Source: an uncultured Rhodospirillales bacterium (GTDB taxonomy: Bacteria; Pseudomonadota; Alphaproteobacteria; Acetobacterales; Acetobacteraceae). From it: a stretch of 50,512 nt of DNA. The translations under genes were made by a program, and so were the position numbers. The stretch is from contig CAIMOR010000487.1 of the NCBI GenBank assembly GCA_903843125.1, positions 1 through 50,512 on the forward strand, read 5' to 3'. A model generated the notes under the pieces. The model was not told the origin of the DNA, did not search any database, and was given only the letters and a program-made list of their open reading frames with translations. Of this stretch, positions 43,214 to 50,512 are shown one piece after another; position 1 is the first letter of the stretch, and each line of letters opens with the position of its first letter.

Positions 43214-43617
43214 CTTTGGCGCTCCGCCTCCCGCAGCGGTTGCACCGCCACCTGCGCCGTGCCCTGGTGCCGCATGCCCAACTGGTCGGCCGTGGCCGGG
43301 GACAGGTCGATGATCCGGCCGCGCGCGTAGGGGCCGCGATCCTCCACCCGCACCTCCGCGCTGCGGCCGTTCTCCAGGTTGGTCACGCGCGCCGTGGTGC
43401 CCAGCGGCAGGTCCCGATGCGCGGCGACGTTGGACTGCGGGTTGAAGCGCTCACCGCTTGCGGTGCGGCGCCCGTTGAACTGCGGGCCGTAGTAGCTGGC
43501 CTCGCCCACCTGGGTCGGCGGCGCAGCCGGCGCCGCTTGGGCCGGTTGCTGCGGCGGCTTGTCGCAGCCGGCCAGCAATGCGGCAGCCAGCGCAAGGGCG
43601 GGGAGGGTCTGCTTCAT
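43195..43617 (-). CDS. rlpA: RlpA-like septal/double-psi beta-barrel lipoprotein
   Basis: 140 residues. Lipoprotein signal with lipobox LAGC (ALALAAALLAGCDKPPQQ), a proline/alanine-rich linker, then the RlpA double-psi barrel: GEASYYGPQFNGRRTASGER, HRDLPLGTTARVTNLENGRS, VEDRGPYARGRIIDLS-ATADQLG. RlpA proteins are outer-membrane lipoproteins that bind or cleave naked glycan strands. The C-terminal SPOR domain of longer homologues is missing. ATG 43617 follows GGAG. The C-terminal residues SPSDAH are encoded within the hairpin. Confidence 0.9.
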   Translation of the reverse strand: MKQTLPALALAAALLAGCDKPPQQPAQAAPAAPPTQVGEASYYGPQFNGRRTASGERFNPQSNVAAHRDLPLGTTARVTNLENGRSAEVRVEDRGPYARGRIIDLSPATADQLGMRHQGTAQVAVQPLREAERQSPSDAH

Positions 43618-43768
43618 CGGCGGCACGTCTCCGTTCGTGGTCCGCGGTCCTGCCGCCACAGCGCCCGGCCTTGTGACGGGTTGCCTTGGCCGCCGCGGGC
43701 TGGTTCAAGTCCGGGGCGCCGGCCCGGCTGCCACTTGCCCGCCCGCGCCCCTTCAGGAGGACCCCGCC

Positions 43769-44032
43769 ATGCTGCGCCGCCGCTTGCTCGTGCTGTCCGT
43801 TACCGCCCTGCCGGCCCTGCCGGCCGCGGCTCAGCCCTATTGGGGGGACCCGCGCGAGCGCCAGATGGAATATGAGCGCCACCGCGAGGAGGAATGGCGC
43901 CGTCGCGCCGGCGACAACCGCCGTGAGCAGTGGCAGGAGGAACGCGAGCGCGCGATGTGGGAAGAGCGCCGCCGCGAGGAACTGCGCCGCGAATACGAAA
44001 TGCGCCAGCGCCCGCCCGGCGACCGCTACTGA
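43769..44032 (+). CDS. Small exported, highly charged helical protein, 87 aa
   Basis: ATG 43769 with perfect AGGAGG 8 bases upstream. Signal peptide (RRRLLVLSVTALPALPAAAQ) with a likely cut after AAA or AQ, then a mature part of about 65 residues that is almost all Arg, Glu, Trp and Tyr in helix-forming order (YERHREEEWRRRAGDNRREQ, ERERAMWEERRREELRREYE). It looks like a single charged helix in the periplasm. I do not recognise the family. It ends just before the 22-bp repeat array. Confidence 0.7.
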   Translation: MLRRRLLVLSVTALPALPAAAQPYWGDPRERQMEYERHREEEWRRRAGDNRREQWQEERERAMWEERRREELRREYEMRQRPPGDRY

Positions 44033-44047
44033 GCCCCGGCCCGGCGC

Positions 44048-44136
44048 CGGACGACCGCTGAAGCGGCGCCGGGACGACCACCCAATCGGCCTCGGACGAC
44101 CGCTGAAGCGGCCTCGGACGACCGCTACAGCGGCGT
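44048..44136. repeat. Tandem hairpin repeat, 4 copies of 22-23 bp
   Basis: Copies start at 44048, 44071, 44093 and 44115; the core is CGGACGACCGCTGAAGCGGC. Copies 1 and 3 are identical over 20 bases, copy 4 differs by one base (CTACAG), copy 2 is degenerate and has lost the dyad. CCGCT-GA-AGCGG in each good copy is a small hairpin. Copy 4 contains the TAG stop of the minus-strand Ldh-family gene (44125-44127) at its loop, so the array extends that gene's 3' end towards the convergent small gene. Confidence 0.85.
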
Positions 44137-45177
44137 CGGGAAATCCACCCCGGCCCGCTCGCCACGCGCCCGCAGCAAGGGCGGAATGCTCGGGTGCAGC
44201 GCCACGCCGCCGAAGCGCTGCGCCGCCTTGCGCGCCAGGCCTCGCTCCCCTGGCAGCCGCAGCGCGTCGCCACCGCGCACCGGCGGGTTGCCATGCACCG
44301 CATCGGCCATCCATTGGGTCTCGGCGGCGAAGGCCGCGGCGCCACCGAACCGCGCGGGGTCCAGCACCAGAACCAGCAGCGCGGCACCCCAGCCGGCGCT
44401 GGGATCCTTTCGGCCGTAGCCGGACAGGCCGGAGGTCAGCGCCTCCACCAGCAGGCCCAGCGCGGCACCCTTGTGCCCGGCCTGCATCCCGCCCAGCGGC
44501 AGCAGCGTCCCGGCGGGTTCGCTGAAGAAGGCGTTGGGGTCGTCGGTCGGCGTACCGGCCGCGTCCAGCAGCGTCGGCGCCGGGAAGCGCGATCCCTCCG
44601 CCCGGCGCCGTGCCGTCATGGCGTTGGTGGTGATGGACATGGAAATATCCATCATCACGCCAGACCCGCCGGTGCCCCAGCCCGCTGCGATGGGATTGGG
44701 CGTGAACACCCGCTGCGTCCCACCCCAGGGCGCCACCGAGGCGGTCGACGGGTCGCTGCTGAACAACAGCAGCACCTGGCCGCGTTCGGCGATGCGCTGC
44801 AGGTAGGCCGCCAGGCAGCCGATATGCCCCGCCCGCTGAATGGAAACGGCGCCCAGCCCGAAGGTCGCCGCCGCGGCGCTCGCCCAGTCGCTGGCCTGGC
44901 GCACCAGCCAAGGCCCCGGCAGCTTGCGGCCGTTCCAGGTCTGCACCACCGGCGTCTCGCTCAGCCGTTCCGGCTCGCCCACGCCGCGCAGCTCGCCGCT
45001 GGCCAGCGCGTCCAGATACGGCGGAAGGTGTGCCAGGCCATGCGTATCGTGGCCGAGCAGGTCGCCTTCCACCAGCACCTCCGCCACCACCGCGGCCTTG
45101 TCCTCCTCCATGCCGGCGTGGCGGAACAGGTCGCGGGCGAAGGCGCGCAGCTCGGTGTCGCGGAACCGCTCGGTCAT
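44125..45177 (-). CDS. Ldh family oxidoreductase (malate/L-sulfolactate/ureidoglycolate dehydrogenase type)
   Basis: 350 residues. NAD(P)-dependent dehydrogenase of the MDH/LDH2 family, unrelated to Rossmann-fold LDHs. Landmarks: LGHDTHGLAHLPPYLDALAS, GLGAVSIQRAGHIGCLAAYL, FTPNPIAAGWGTG, and the substrate/NAD segment LPLGGMQAGHKGAALGLLVE-ALTSGLSGYG. It oxidises a 2-hydroxy acid; which one is not visible. ATG 45177 is two bases after the PhoD-like stop, so the two genes form an operon. The stop codon is within the 22-bp repeat array. Confidence 0.9.
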   Translation of the reverse strand: MTERFRDTELRAFARDLFRHAGMEEDKAAVVAEVLVEGDLLGHDTHGLAHLPPYLDALASGELRGVGEPERLSETPVVQTWNGRKLPGPWLVRQASDWASAAAATFGLGAVSIQRAGHIGCLAAYLQRIAERGQVLLLFSSDPSTASVAPWGGTQRVFTPNPIAAGWGTGGSGVMMDISMSITTNAMTARRRAEGSRFPAPTLLDAAGTPTDDPNAFFSEPAGTLLPLGGMQAGHKGAALGLLVEALTSGLSGYGRKDPSAGWGAALLVLVLDPARFGGAAAFAAETQWMADAVHGNPPVRGGDALRLPGERGLARKAAQRFGGVALHPSIPPLLRARGERAGVDFPTPL

Positions 45178-45179
45178 GC

Positions 45180-46727
45180 TCAGGCCCTGGGGATGCGGGT
45201 GGTGCGGAACGGCTGCAGGCTGTCGATCGCCTCGACCGGCTCATGCCGCCACTTGAAGTAGCGCAGCGTCACCTCGCCCGGCGTGAAGTCGGCGATGGTG
45301 AAGCCGTTCTCCTCCAGCGGCTGCAGCGCCTCCCGCACCTCCAGCCCTGCCGGCACCTGCGGCACCATGCCGCGGATGGTCGAGGGAAACCCCGGCCGCC
45401 CGGTGCCAAGCGGCCCGCACAGCACGGAGGTGACCGGGTGGCGCGAGAAATCATGCGCGCCGCTGCGCATGATCTGCGTCTCGCCGATGGCGTGCAGGTC
45501 GCCACTGATGAAGACCGGCGTGCGGTCGCGCATGGCGCTGGCCGCGGCGAGCAGCCGGTCATGCTGGGCGCGCCAGCCGCTCTGCCAATAAGGCTTCGGC
45601 CGCTCGGTCGTCAGCTTGGCGTCGGCTTCCAGGTCGGCGTACCACTCGCCCCACTTGCCCGCGCTCCAGCCCGGCGGGGTCGAGGGCGCGTTGATGAGGT
45701 GCGCGACGTCGCTCTCGGCCATGCGCTGCTTCAGCCAGGCCTCGGTGGTCTCGGGGATGAAGCTGGCGCTGGGCCCCATCAGCGTCATGAAGCGGCGGCA
45801 GTCGTACATCAGCACCTCCAGCAGCTTGCCGTAGCGCAGCGTGCCGAAGCTTTCGGAGATGCCATCCGACCGGGTGCTGCCGAGGCCGAGCGGCCGCGTC
45901 GCATCCGGCAGGAAGGCCGGGTAGTACAGCGCCTGGCTGGCTCGCGCCGCCGCCAGCATGAACGGGTCCGGCGGGAAGGAGATCAGGCGGTCGGTCGCCT
46001 CGTCATTCTCGAAGTGGTCGTGGTCGTCCTGCATGAAGAACACCGGCACGCTGCGGCAGCGGGCGCCGTACAGCGGCGCGATCTGCGGCCCGACCGCGCG
46101 CTTCAGCACCGCCTCGTTGGGGCCGCCCAGCAGCGGCTGTTCGCGGGCGAATACGCCGGTCACCCGCGTCACCGCTTCCGGCAGCGTCGCGGTGCCGGCA
46201 GCCACTTGGCGGCGCTGGTCCCAGTAGACGTGGTCGCCATTGGCCACCAGCACATCGGGCGCGAAGCTCAGCGCCCGCTCCAGCAGCCGCGCCCGCGTCG
46301 CCACCGGCAGGAAGCGCCCGGTCAGGTCATGCCCGCCGGCGCAGGTATAGAACAGCACGCGCAGCTTCTGCGGGCTGTCGCCCGGCGCGGGAAAGGTGCT
46401 GAGCGGCCAGCTGTCGCACAGCGGCCGGCCCTGCGCATCGGTCAACGCCAAGGTGTAGCGGCGCGAGGGCTCCAACCCCGGCAGGTCGAACTCCCAGTGC
46501 TGCCCCAGCGTATCGGTGCGCCGGCCGCTGGCGCGGCGTACGCCGGCATGCAGCACCGGCGGCCGCGCCAGTGGTTCCGAGAGCGAGAGCGTGATGAGGA
46601 TGCGGTTGTGGCTGACCGTGGGCAGCAGGTGCGCCAGCATGCCGCCGTTCCAGGCCGCGGCCTGCGCGTCGCCCGCCGCCAGACCGGCCAGCGCTGCGCT
46701 GCCGGCCAGGAATTCCCTGCGTTGCAT
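45180..46727 (-). CDS. PhoD-like alkaline phosphatase/phosphodiesterase
   Basis: 515 residues with a Tat-type signal (RREFLAGSAALAGLAAGDAQ). After an N-terminal Ig-like domain comes the metallophosphatase core: LRVLFYTCAGGH, VLVANGDHVYWDQR, VPVFFMQDDHDHFEND and VFISGDLHAIGETQI, with the metal-binding Asp/His residues in place. PhoD enzymes hydrolyse phosphate mono- and diesters in the periplasm with Ca and Fe. The first gene of the unit with the Ldh-family dehydrogenase, and divergent from the FAH-family gene across 72 bases. No Pho box was recognised. Confidence 0.87.
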   Translation of the reverse strand: MQRREFLAGSAALAGLAAGDAQAAAWNGGMLAHLLPTVSHNRILITLSLSEPLARPPVLHAGVRRASGRRTDTLGQHWEFDLPGLEPSRRYTLALTDAQGRPLCDSWPLSTFPAPGDSPQKLRVLFYTCAGGHDLTGRFLPVATRARLLERALSFAPDVLVANGDHVYWDQRRQVAAGTATLPEAVTRVTGVFAREQPLLGGPNEAVLKRAVGPQIAPLYGARCRSVPVFFMQDDHDHFENDEATDRLISFPPDPFMLAAARASQALYYPAFLPDATRPLGLGSTRSDGISESFGTLRYGKLLEVLMYDCRRFMTLMGPSASFIPETTEAWLKQRMAESDVAHLINAPSTPPGWSAGKWGEWYADLEADAKLTTERPKPYWQSGWRAQHDRLLAAASAMRDRTPVFISGDLHAIGETQIMRSGAHDFSRHPVTSVLCGPLGTGRPGFPSTIRGMVPQVPAGLEVREALQPLEENGFTIADFTPGEVTLRYFKWRHEPVEAIDSLQPFRTTRIPRA

Positions 46728-46799
46728 GGCCCATCTCTCCCCGTTGGCGCGGATGGTGCCCGCCGGCTAGGCTGGGCGCAAGCAATGGAGCGAACCGCC

Positions 46800-47912
46800 A
46801 TGGACCCCAGCATCCTGCCTGCCGACTGGCCGCTTGGCAGCTACGCCGGCCGGATCGCGACGCCGGAAGGCCCGCTGGTGCTGGCCTGGCGGGAAGGCAG
46901 CTGCTTCGACATGACGCCGGCCTTCGGCACCGTCTCCGCCTGGCTGAATGAGGGGGATCCCGTCGCCGCCATCGGCGCCCGCGGCACGCCGTTCACGCTG
47001 CCCCCAAACGCCACGCTGCTGGCACCGGTGGACCTGCAGGCCATCAAGGCCGCCGGCGTCACCTACGTTCGCAGCATGCTGGAACGCGTCATCGAGGAAC
47101 GTTGCCGCGGCGACGCGTCGCAGGCCGAAGCGGTGCGCGCCGAGGTACGCAGCATCATCGGCGACGACCTGTCCTCGGTGCAGCCCGGCAGCCCGCAGGC
47201 GATGCGGATCAAGGCCGCGCTGGTCGAGAAGGGCTGGTGGAGCCAGTACCTGGAAGTGGGCATCGGCGCCGATGCCGAGATCTTCACCAAATGCCAGCCC
47301 ATGGCCGCCGTGGGACCTGGTGCCGCGGTGGGCGTGCATCCCGCCAGCCAATGGTCCAACCCGGAGCCGGAAGCGGTGCTGGTGGTCAACTCCGGCGGCC
47401 GCATCGTCGGCGCCACGCTGGGCAACGACGTGAACCTGCGCGACATCGAGGGCCGCTCCGCCCTGCTGCTCGGCCGCGCCAAGGACAACAACGCCAGTTG
47501 CGCCCTCGGCCCGCTGGTCCGCCTGTTCGACGCGACCTATTCGCTGGACGATGTGCGCGGCTCCATCACCAGCATGACCATCCGCGGCACCGACGGCTTC
47601 GCGCTGGAGGAAACCGGCGCGGTCGGCGCCATCAGCCGCGACCCGCAGGACCTGGTCGCGCAGCTGGTCAGCCCGCATCACCAATACCCGGACGGCGTGG
47701 TGCTGTTCCTCGGCACGCCGTTCTCCCCCGCCAAGGACCGCGGCGCGCCGGGCCTCGGCTTCACCCACAAGTCCGGCGATGTCGTCCGCATCTCGACCCC
47801 GAAGCTGGGCGCGCTGGAGAATACCGTGCTGCCGACCGACCAATGCCCTCCCTGGCGGTTCGGCACCGGCGCGCTCTTCGCCTCGCTCGCCGCCCGGGGC
47901 CTGCCGCTGTGA
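46800..47912 (+). CDS. Fumarylacetoacetate hydrolase family protein
   Basis: 370 residues. The C-terminal FAH domain has metal-binding acidic residues in QWSNPEPEAVLVVNSGG and LGNDVNLRDIEGRSALLLG, then RAKDNNASCALGPLVRLF and the C-terminal KSGDVVRISTPKLGALEN. Members hydrolyse or decarboxylate 2-oxo or 2,4-dioxo acids, or dehydrate sugar acids. The N-terminal 90 residues are a separate domain, longer than in minimal FAH enzymes. ATG 46800 after GGAG is chosen over ATG 46785. The stop overlaps the alpha/beta hydrolase start as GTGA. Confidence 0.87.
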   Translation: MDPSILPADWPLGSYAGRIATPEGPLVLAWREGSCFDMTPAFGTVSAWLNEGDPVAAIGARGTPFTLPPNATLLAPVDLQAIKAAGVTYVRSMLERVIEERCRGDASQAEAVRAEVRSIIGDDLSSVQPGSPQAMRIKAALVEKGWWSQYLEVGIGADAEIFTKCQPMAAVGPGAAVGVHPASQWSNPEPEAVLVVNSGGRIVGATLGNDVNLRDIEGRSALLLGRAKDNNASCALGPLVRLFDATYSLDDVRGSITSMTIRGTDGFALEETGAVGAISRDPQDLVAQLVSPHHQYPDGVVLFLGTPFSPAKDRGAPGLGFTHKSGDVVRISTPKLGALENTVLPTDQCPPWRFGTGALFASLAARGLPL

Positions 47913-48664
47913 GCGAGGTCTCCGGCAGCATCGACCGCGGCGATGGCGTGCAACTCGCCTATCGCCTCATCGCCGGACGCACACCGGGCGTGATCTTCCT
48001 GGGCGGCTTCAACTCCGACATGACCGGCAGCAAGCCGGCAGATCTCGCTGCCTTCTGCGCCGAACAGGGCCACGCCTTCCTCCGCTTCGACTATTCCGGC
48101 CATGGCGCCAGCGGCGGCAGCTTCGCCGAGGGCACCATCGGCCGCTGGCTGGACGACGCCACGCTGATGCTGGACCGGCTCAGCGCCGGCCCCGTCGTGC
48201 TGGTCGGTTCCTCGATGGGGGGCTGGATCGCGCTGCTGCTGGCGCTGCGCCGGCCGCAGCGCGTTGCCGCCCTGGTCGGCATCGCCGCCGCCCCGGATTT
48301 CACCACGCGCATCGACGCGATGCTGCCGCCACAGGCCCGCGAGGAGATGGACCGCACCGGCGTCTGGCTGCGCCCCAGCCAATACGGCGCGCCGTTCCCC
48401 ATCGCCCGCGCCCTGCTGGAGGAAGGCCGCCGGCACCTGCTGCTGCACCAGCCCATTCCGCTCGGCATTCCCGTCCGCCTGCTGCATGGCCAGCAGGACC
48501 CCGACGTGCCCTGGCAGCATTCGATCACCATCGCCGAGCGCATCGCCGGCCCCGATGTCCAGGTGCGGCTGGTGAAGGATGGCGACCACCGCCTCTCCAC
48601 CCCGCGCGACCTGGCGCTGCTACGGCAGGAGGTAGCCTCCCTCCTCGGCCAGGATCGCGGCTAG
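47909..48664 (+). CDS. Alpha/beta hydrolase (serine esterase)
   Basis: 251 residues. Canonical fold with nucleophile elbow VLVGSSMGGWIALLLAL, acid in LLHGQQDPDVPWQHS and catalytic histidine in VKDGDHRLSTPRD. The oxyanion part FLGGFNSDMTGSKPADL and RFDYSGHGASGGSF resembles the ABHD10 type of esterase. GTG start at 47909 overlaps the FAH-family stop, so both are co-translated and may act on one compound. The 3' end overlaps the convergent SDR-type gene by 45 bases. Confidence 0.88.
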   Translation: MSEVSGSIDRGDGVQLAYRLIAGRTPGVIFLGGFNSDMTGSKPADLAAFCAEQGHAFLRFDYSGHGASGGSFAEGTIGRWLDDATLMLDRLSAGPVVLVGSSMGGWIALLLALRRPQRVAALVGIAAAPDFTTRIDAMLPPQAREEMDRTGVWLRPSQYGAPFPIARALLEEGRRHLLLHQPIPLGIPVRLLHGQQDPDVPWQHSITIAERIAGPDVQVRLVKDGDHRLSTPRDLALLRQEVASLLGQDRG

Positions 48665-49486
48665 CCCCTCCCGGTAGCTCGGATAGCGCCAGCCGATCCC
48701 AAGCGCCGCCTTGGTCGCGGCGTTCGCCACCCGCCGGTTCTCGGACCAGAAGCTCCGCGCCATCGGCGACATCCGCGCCTCGGCTTCGGCGAAGGGCACG
48801 GCCGGCGGCGGCTCGATGCCGAGCAGCCGCGCGCCATATTCCACCACCACGGCGCTCTCGGCCGGCTCGTCATCCACCAGGTTCAGGGTACGCAGCCCGT
48901 TCGGCGCGGCGGTGCGGATGGCCGCCAGCACCGCCAGCGCGATGTCGTCGCGGTGCACCCGGCTGAACGCATGGCCCGGCTTCACCGTCCGCCGCGCCGT
49001 GCCGTCCCGCAACTCGTCGAGCACGCTGCGCCCCGGCCCGTAGATGCCGCCCGAGCGCAGGACATCCACCGCACGGTCGGCGGCCAAGGCGGCCCAATCC
49101 TGCTCGGCGGCCAGGCGCAGGCGGGTACGGTCCTGCGTCGGCGCCGGCGGCGTCGCCTCGTCCACCCAGCCGCCATCGTGGTCGCCATAGACGCCGGTGG
49201 TGGAGACATAGCCGACCCAGGCCAGCCTTGCCCGCCGCACCGCCGCGCCATGGGCGGCCAGCACCGGGTCGCCGGCCGGGCCGGGCGCGGCGGTGACCAG
49301 CAGGTGTGTCGCCGCGGGCAACACCCGGGCGAAATCGTCGAAGCCGACCAGCGCCACCCCGGCCGGTGGCCGCGCCCGGCCCGGGTCCCGCGCCGTGCCG
49401 GTCACCCGCAACCCCGCGGCCACGGCCGCTTTCGCCACCGCCGTACCGCTGTAGCCCAGGCCCGCGATCAGAAGATGTTGCGCCAC
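48620..49486 (-). CDS. Atypical SDR/NAD(P)-dependent epimerase-type protein (YeeZ-like)
   Basis: 288 residues. N-terminal nucleotide-binding glycine motif LLIAGLGYSGTAVAKAAV, RVTGTARDPGR, then WVGYVSTTGVYGDHDGG-WVDE, with the YG-type start of the extended SDR active site, and VLRSGGIYGPGRSVLDEL. The YxxxK motif is not intact, as usual in YeeZ-like members, so catalysis is uncertain. ATG 49486. Its last 15 codons lie antisense to the end of the alpha/beta hydrolase gene. It is divergent from the TPR gene across 67 bases. Confidence 0.82.
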   Translation of the reverse strand: MAQHLLIAGLGYSGTAVAKAAVAAGLRVTGTARDPGRARPPAGVALVGFDDFARVLPAATHLLVTAAPGPAGDPVLAAHGAAVRRARLAWVGYVSTTGVYGDHDGGWVDEATPPAPTQDRTRLRLAAEQDWAALAADRAVDVLRSGGIYGPGRSVLDELRDGTARRTVKPGHAFSRVHRDDIALAVLAAIRTAAPNGLRTLNLVDDEPAESAVVVEYGARLLGIEPPPAVPFAEAEARMSPMARSFWSENRRVANAATKAALGIGWRYPSYREGLAAILAEEGGYLLP

Positions 49487-49553
49487 GCTGAAGGTCTCGC
49501 CATTGCTGCCGCCTGATCTGGCATCGCCGGCGCCGGGCGACTAGACTGCGCCG

Positions 49554-50378
49554 GTGAAAACCCCCCGTCCCGTGTTGCTCGGCGTGTTCGCGGCCGTCAT
49601 GCTGGCTGCCGCCGCCGGTGCCTGGTTCATGTTCAGCCCGGCGCTGTTGCCGTCCTCCGAAGTGCTGCCGCTGCCGCCGGAGCCGGTTCGCCTGGCCGAG
49701 GGCGAGGATTACGAACGCTGCCTGCAGGCGCTGCGCACCGACCCGACCGGCGCGCTCGCCATCGCCGAGGCCTGGGAAGCGACCGGCGGCGGCGAGGGCG
49801 CGCGCCACTGCGCCGCCCTGGCCACCCTGGGCATGGGCGAGCCCGACAAGGCCGCCGAGCAACTGGAGCAACTGGCTACCCGCAGCCGTGGCAGCGCCCC
49901 GGCCCGGGCCGCGGTCTTCGCCCAGGCCGGCCAGGCGTGGCTGATGGCCGGCCAGCCCGGCCGCGCCTATGCCGCCAGCACCATGGCGCTGACCCTGACG
50001 CCCACCGACGTGGACCTGCTGATCGACCGCGCCGTCGCCCTGGGCACGCTGGGCCGCTACAGCGATTCCATCGAGGATCTGAACCGCGCCCTGGGGCTGG
50101 ACCCCGACCGTGCCGATGCCTGGGTGTTCCGCGCCGCCAGCTGGCGGCACCTGGACCATGTCGACCAGGCCGAGCGCGACATCGTCCGCGCCCTGGAGTC
50201 CGATCCCGACAACGCCGAGGCGCTGCTGGAACGCGGCATCATCCGCCAACTTCAGGGCGACGCGACCGGCGCCCGCGCCGATTGGGAACGCGCCATTACC
50301 CTGGCGCCGGACAGCGCCACGGCGGACCTGGCGCAGCAGAACCTGGCGCTGACCGAAGCCGGGCCGTTGCGGCGATAG
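49554..50378 (+). CDS. Membrane-anchored TPR protein
   Basis: 274 residues, GTG start at 49554. One N-terminal membrane helix (VLLGVFAAVMLAAAAGAWFM) and a periplasmic part with four to five TPR units (AVFAQAGQAWLMAGQPGRAY, IDRAVALGTLGRYSDSIEDL, RAASWRHLDHVDQAERDIVR, ERGIIRQLQGDATGARADWE). It is a likely scaffold for envelope proteins; the partner is unknown. The last codons and the TAG stop (50376-50378) form the first hairpin of the tandem 27-bp array that follows. Confidence 0.82.
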   Translation: MKTPRPVLLGVFAAVMLAAAAGAWFMFSPALLPSSEVLPLPPEPVRLAEGEDYERCLQALRTDPTGALAIAEAWEATGGGEGARHCAALATLGMGEPDKAAEQLEQLATRSRGSAPARAAVFAQAGQAWLMAGQPGRAYAASTMALTLTPTDVDLLIDRAVALGTLGRYSDSIEDLNRALGLDPDRADAWVFRAASWRHLDHVDQAERDIVRALESDPDNAEALLERGIIRQLQGDATGARADWERAITLAPDSATADLAQQNLALTEAGPLRR

Positions 50379-50512
50379 CCGCACCCTCGAAAGAAGCGGC
50401 GATAGCCGCACCCTCGAAAGAAGCGGCGATAGCCGCACCCTCGAAAGAAGCGGCGATAGCCGCACCCTCGAAAGAAGCGGCGATAGCCGCACCCTCGAAA
50501 GAAGCGGCGATA
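50369..50512. repeat. Tandem 27-bp hairpin repeat, 5 full copies plus a partial one, running off the window
   Basis: Units start at 50369, 50396, 50423, 50450, 50477 and 50504 and are identical. Each begins with a hairpin GCGGC-GATA-GCCGC and continues ACCCTCGAAAGAA. In the first copy the loop and stem hold the stop codon TAG of the TPR gene. Because 27 is a multiple of three, every copy repeats TAG in that gene's frame, while the other plus frame reads AAIAAPSKE and a minus frame reads RLSPLLSRV without stops. There are no spacers, so it is not a CRISPR array. The total copy number is unknown. Confidence 0.95.

Follow-up and report, generated by a model that had tools for sequence, protein, structure and literature searches.

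A 27-bp tandem array between convergent TPR-protein and MFS transporter genes of an Acetobacteraceae draft genome is probably a young, locally born minisatellite

We analysed a window of 50,512 bp that is the entire contig C487 of a draft Acetobacteraceae assembly (5.56 Mb, 572 contigs). Near its right end, the list of open reading frames gives a plus-strand gene for a TPR protein (49554-50378; GTG start, 274 amino acids, ending in LRR and a TAG stop; Pfam TPR_2, E 8.8e-18), with orthologues of 80-95% protein identity in all five congeners (G001-G005). TRF called a tandem array with a 27-bp period, assigned to neither strand, at 50369-50512 (5.3 copies, or 5.33; 100% matches, no indels, score 288). 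Read directly, the array consists of five complete copies, with 9 bases of a sixth behind them; an earlier note on this DNA had described six identical units, and the array of perfect copies is real, but the sixth is cut by the contig end. With 144 perfectly periodic bases, chance is ruled out. The TPR gene contributes its final 10 bases to the start of the array, and its stop codon (50376-50378) lies in the first unit, as the note had reported. Every full copy also carries the 5-bp hairpin that the note described, GCGGC-GATA-GCCGC, and two units fold at -24.1 kcal/mol on the plus strand (z -4.40) and at -29.4 kcal/mol on the minus strand (z -3.85). Since 27 is a multiple of 3, the TAG returns in frame in successive copies, and for the same reason the non-TPR frames are open through the array. 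We rejected a reading of the array as a coding repeat; the TPR frame is fixed by the orthologues.

The array extends past the window, in agreement with the note. A second contig, C313 (L012, 3140 bp), opens in register with it (L012:1-90), and the end of C487 can be matched exactly to the start of C313 over 32 or over 5 bases. On C313 the first copy is partial but perfect; the next has 2 mismatches and the one after it 6 (ungapped), and decayed sequence follows. With the 32-base overlap, the array measures about 200 bp, decayed copies included. Identity of all copies thus holds on the TPR side but not on C313. The perfect copies lie next to the TPR gene and the decayed ones on the far side, giving a gradient of decay toward a gene for an MFS transporter (L012:118-1389; MFS_1, E 3e-47). 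This gene is on the minus strand, and the array therefore fills the junction of two convergent genes. Copy number at a contig end cannot be trusted, and both the number and the perfection of the copies need long-read confirmation. Two further contigs open inside arrays of 97% identity, at L108:1-172 in G003 (35 bp x 4.9) and at L075:1-117 in the same genome as the window (24 bp x 4.9).

The TPR and MFS genes are convergent on a single contig in each of the five congeners. They are direct neighbours in four of them, with stop-to-stop gaps, counted by hand from the sequence, of 41 (G003), 3 (G005), 6 (G004) and 25 bp (G002); in G001 about 0.9 kb separates the genes, and 260 bases of that stretch were read. 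We found no 27-bp array at the junction in the four congeners with adjacent genes, and, at up to 3 mismatches, the unit matched nowhere in the five congener genomes (G001 is 89% and G002 85% complete). No congener had a single-copy precursor of the unit. The TPR protein ends in LRR in all six species, with similar codons, indicating that this gene end is native. The absence from the congeners supports the claim of the earlier note that the array is young, and its proposal of growth from a stop codon fits the match between the first 10 bases of the unit and the native TPR end.

The unit is confined to this locus. Allowing up to 3 mismatches, it is missing from 298 of the 299 family genomes searched, the exception being its own genome, in which all 6 matches fall in the array (5 in the window and 1 at the start of C313). 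The search for the unit at other stop codons that the note had called for thus returned none in this genome within the same limit. Bacterial minisatellites, or VNTR loci, are head-to-tail, locus-specific, intergenic repeats that break contigs, and the array resembles them in having several head-to-tail copies of a unit between about 10 and 100 bp long (27 bp x 5.33, plus the continuation on C313), restricted to one locus in 1 of 299 family genomes. REPs, by comparison, are GTAG- and CGTC-tagged palindromes (PMC3733652). The 27-bp unit is not dispersed in many copies and has neither tag at a palindrome end when read on both strands; with its genome matches limited to the array, we rejected identity with a REP or other dispersed repeat.

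We surveyed tandem arrays in a 1.31 Mb sample of the genus, which is probably a freshwater one, judging by MAG names that point to lake samples. The sample comprised 575 kb of the target genome, the window and C313 among it, and 334 kb, 240 kb and 160 kb of G003, G005 and G004, respectively; genes were called with our own codon-usage script and arrays with TRF (score at least 80, period at least 15, at least 2.5 copies). Apart from the target there were 19 intergenic arrays, of which 10 were at convergent, 7 at codirectional and 2 at divergent junctions; the other rows were 5 arrays touching contig ends (2 of them the target) and 14 inside genes. Gene pairs in the sample numbered 179 convergent, 785 codirectional and 178 divergent. 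With the target included, 11 of 20 arrays were convergent, compared with 16% of gene pairs (p 6e-5 by pairs, 1e-4 by intergenic bases), in a count that omits the contig-edge arrays L075, L084 and L108 and merges the two edge rows of the target (window and L012). The enrichment was also seen with the target excluded (10/19; p 2e-4 and 3e-4, respectively), with both arrays of the window excluded (9/18; p 7e-4 and 1e-3), and with the target kept and three arrays of dispersed-type units left out (9/17; p 4e-4 and 6e-4). The 10 convergent arrays came from the target genome (4), G003 (3) and G005 (3), with none from G004; at 3 of the 5 convergent junctions of the target genome, the left gene, as called by the codon-usage script, had no Pfam match. 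In 780 kb from five further genera of the family there were 3 intergenic arrays, one each at a convergent, a codirectional and a divergent junction. The resulting densities, 14.5 per Mb in the genus and 3.8 per Mb in the other genera (19 vs 3, p 0.014), come from stretches picked by hand and weakly support an array excess specific to the genus.

A called stop codon is no more than 10 bp away from most of the intergenic arrays (13/19), and a start from 3/19; closeness to stops is partly expected because convergent gaps are short (median 48 bp). Periods divisible by 3 were found for 8/19 intergenic arrays and for 14/14 intragenic ones. The note was right that the period keeps the TAG in frame, but on this comparison the serial stops look incidental. 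The median hairpin z over the 19 intergenic arrays was -0.4, which does not support hairpins as a general cause of arrays. Only two intergenic or contig-edge units in the sample reached z <=-2, the edge-row unit of the target (-3.0) and that of L143 (-4.0), and both are at convergent junctions.

We compared four array junctions across the genus. At the first, a second array in the window (44042-44139; 22 bp x 4.4, 80%) lies between convergent ORFs, one on the plus strand (43559-44032) and a minus-strand Ldh_2 gene (44125-45177), and its final copy runs into the end of the Ldh_2 gene; no tandem counterpart was found in G002, G003, G004 or G005, and G001 gave no match. The second junction, also in the target genome, has a 26-bp array (L077:1929-2031) that begins 2 bases past the stop codon of a 3-hydroxyacyl-CoA dehydrogenase gene. 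In G005, one copy related to this unit lies directly past the equivalent stop codon (29/34 bases) with no tandem; other sequence occupies the junction in G002 and G001, and the two flanks could not be located together in G003 or G004. We take L077 to be a sister case of local array birth. At the third junction, L099 of G003, a 57-bp unit is present in 3.1 copies, and the G005 equivalent is one copy. The target genome has a 20-bp gap with a remnant at this position, the flanks overlap by 12 bp in G004, G002 has a 141-bp gap with two occurrences of a roughly 25-bp segment that TRF did not call, and G001 gave no match. The L099 unit belongs to a dispersed palindrome family, and the array is therefore an amplification of an inserted or old element; we dropped L099 as an instance of birth from gene ends.

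Not all arrays of the genus were born from gene ends, as L099 (G003), L135 (G005) and L143 (G005) show. The first two carry all or part of a dispersed REP-like palindrome of about 40 bp (CTGATTCACG ... GATCAG), members of which include L099:15241-15416 (G003) and L226-L228. This palindrome has 82 matches in G003, 90 in G005, 73 in G001, 24 in G004, 16 in G002 and 5 in the target genome (reversed control, 0), and 0 in the samples of five other genera. It is occasionally tandem, as in five copies at G003:C63:2749-3006. The L143 array (L143:7593-7700, G005), at the fourth junction compared, is built of a strong hairpin unit of 38-40 bp, tandem at one convergent junction. A related hairpin pair is present at the equivalent junction in G003 and G004 (L216 and L215, respectively), where the array also matches further places; neither this pair nor, as searched, the hairpin unit was found in the target genome.

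We consider it fairly probable that the 27-bp array is a young, locally born and species-specific minisatellite in the 3'-3' gap of the TPR and convergent MFS genes, with any role as a terminator being secondary. It would have started from, or grown into, the end of the TPR gene. A short segment taking in the end of that gene, with its stop codon, and roughly 17 bases of spacer would have been duplicated in tandem; with no single-copy precursor in the congeners, this birth is inferred. Further copies would have been added and homogenised by slippage or unequal recombination, with growth mainly next to the TPR gene, so that the copies close to the MFS gene are the older, decayed ones, and the hairpin may have aided slippage. 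Such duplication would be tolerated, and presumably neutral, because the first copy preserves the TPR end, the MFS gene ends beyond the array, and convergent genes are not expected to have a promoter or ribosome-binding site between them. The copies after the first take a terminator-like form on the MFS strand; they may act as terminators, though this is not necessarily the reason for the array. Overall, the array looks like an ordinary, recent repeat that probably varies in copy number.

The best-surviving alternative, though an unlikely one, is that the array works as a ladder of intrinsic terminators serving the MFS gene and blocks antisense read-through into the TPR gene, with copy number tuning the block. 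On the minus strand, the strand of the MFS gene, the hairpin is followed by TTCTTT in 4 of the 5 full window units (50386-50490; 5-bp G+C stem, 4-nt loop), giving the G+C stem-loop and T-rich tail of an intrinsic terminator. This combination is found on that strand only: on the plus strand the hairpin is followed by ACCCTCG, with no T run, so that the reinforced terminator suggested in the note is not supported for the TPR gene. A terminator scan of the window from 43500 to 50512 gave 9 sites, 4 of them in the array, compared with 1.7 in shuffles, and a scan of C313 1-400 gave 4 minus-strand sites (3 units and 1 overlapping alternative) compared with 0.5. The 4 window units and 3 C313 units that pass are nevertheless copies of one unit, and hence not independent; moreover, the stem is only 5 bp and a C interrupts the T run. 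The longest T run, CTTTTTG, is in the copy closest to the MFS gene, which favours the ladder and might also suggest that the MFS terminator seeded the array; we regard such seeding as less likely, given that the first 10 bases of the unit match the native TPR end.

We also scanned gene ends for terminator-like sites within 100 bp of a stop codon, with a script of our own that ran over the called genes and skipped any end lacking a called neighbour on its contig, both target ends among them. In the target genome sample, sites were found at 1/152 convergent ends, 2/356 codirectional ends and 0/368 internal windows, compared with 8/508 in shuffles. The corresponding counts were 6/86, 3/168, 1/189 and 4/254 in G003, 3/68, 1/163, 1/173 and 3/231 in G005, and 3/104, 10/262, 1/271 and 5/366 in G016. 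There is thus no excess in the target genome, which argues against the ladder, and a small excess over shuffles at the convergent ends of G003 and G005, which argues for it; however, the antisense strand at convergent ends scores about equally in those two genomes (4/86 and 3/68, respectively). A selective terminator reading would also predict that the two units with z <=-2 be at convergent junctions, as they are. Against this, neither the array nor such a unit is present at the TPR/MFS junction of the four congeners. We favour the minisatellite reading, under which terminator activity is a possible by-product.

Somewhat more doubtful than the ladder is a broader proposal, that convergent junctions of this genus are nurseries in which arrays are born repeatedly, from gene ends or from dispersed palindromes, and that occasionally, as here, an array becomes a new multi-copy terminator serving one of the two genes, in a genome with otherwise few intrinsic terminators. 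There is only a small chance that the perfection or copy number is a product of assembly, a short-read assembler having gone round a repeat loop and stopped while the real array differs in length or is less uniform. Contig ends cut the array on both sides, on C487 at its end and on C313 at its start, in a draft of 572 contigs, and perfect repeats are known to terminate contigs and to be collapsed during assembly (PMC9879509; PMC6868369). Nevertheless, a multi-copy array exists, because C313 separately carries further in-phase, non-identical copies, and comparable arrays sit inside other contigs. It is very improbable that the array is an RNase barrier stabilising the 3' end of the TPR mRNA: stable sense-strand hairpins do occur at and past the TPR stop, but the array is not retained there in the congeners read, the first hairpin shares bases with the stop codon and terminating ribosomes would presumably open it, and strong hairpins are not general among the other arrays.

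As a minisatellite, the array shares with known VNTR loci the head-to-tail repetition of a unit some tens of bases long, its single intergenic locus and its breaking of contigs; it differs in that the stop codon of the upstream gene falls within the unit. TAACTGA repeats can likewise overlap stop codons (PMC4679880). REP elements (PMC3733652) are short palindromes downstream of genes, often between convergent ORFs, as here, but those are dispersed and tagged, and in this genus a separate REP-like family exists. The archaeal Borg elements (PMC9879509) have intergenic tandem repeats too, but these are A-enriched and extrachromosomal, whereas the present draft genome is bacterial, has a G+C content of about 70% and shows its enrichment at convergent junctions. 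Intrinsic (Rho-independent) terminators share the G+C hairpin and the T-rich tail on the minus strand, but the stem of the array is short, its T run is interrupted, its repeats are many, and such sites are not enriched at gene ends of the target genome sample. With these published repeats and PMC6868369 as precedents, the array belongs to a known kind.

By itself, the array is a candidate for strain typing and a break point of this assembly. The wider pattern is that arrays, built from many different units, are over-represented at 3'-3' junctions and often reach as far as a stop codon; it offers a simple test bed for the birth of repeats under weak selection, and for whether repeats can seed new transcription terminators.
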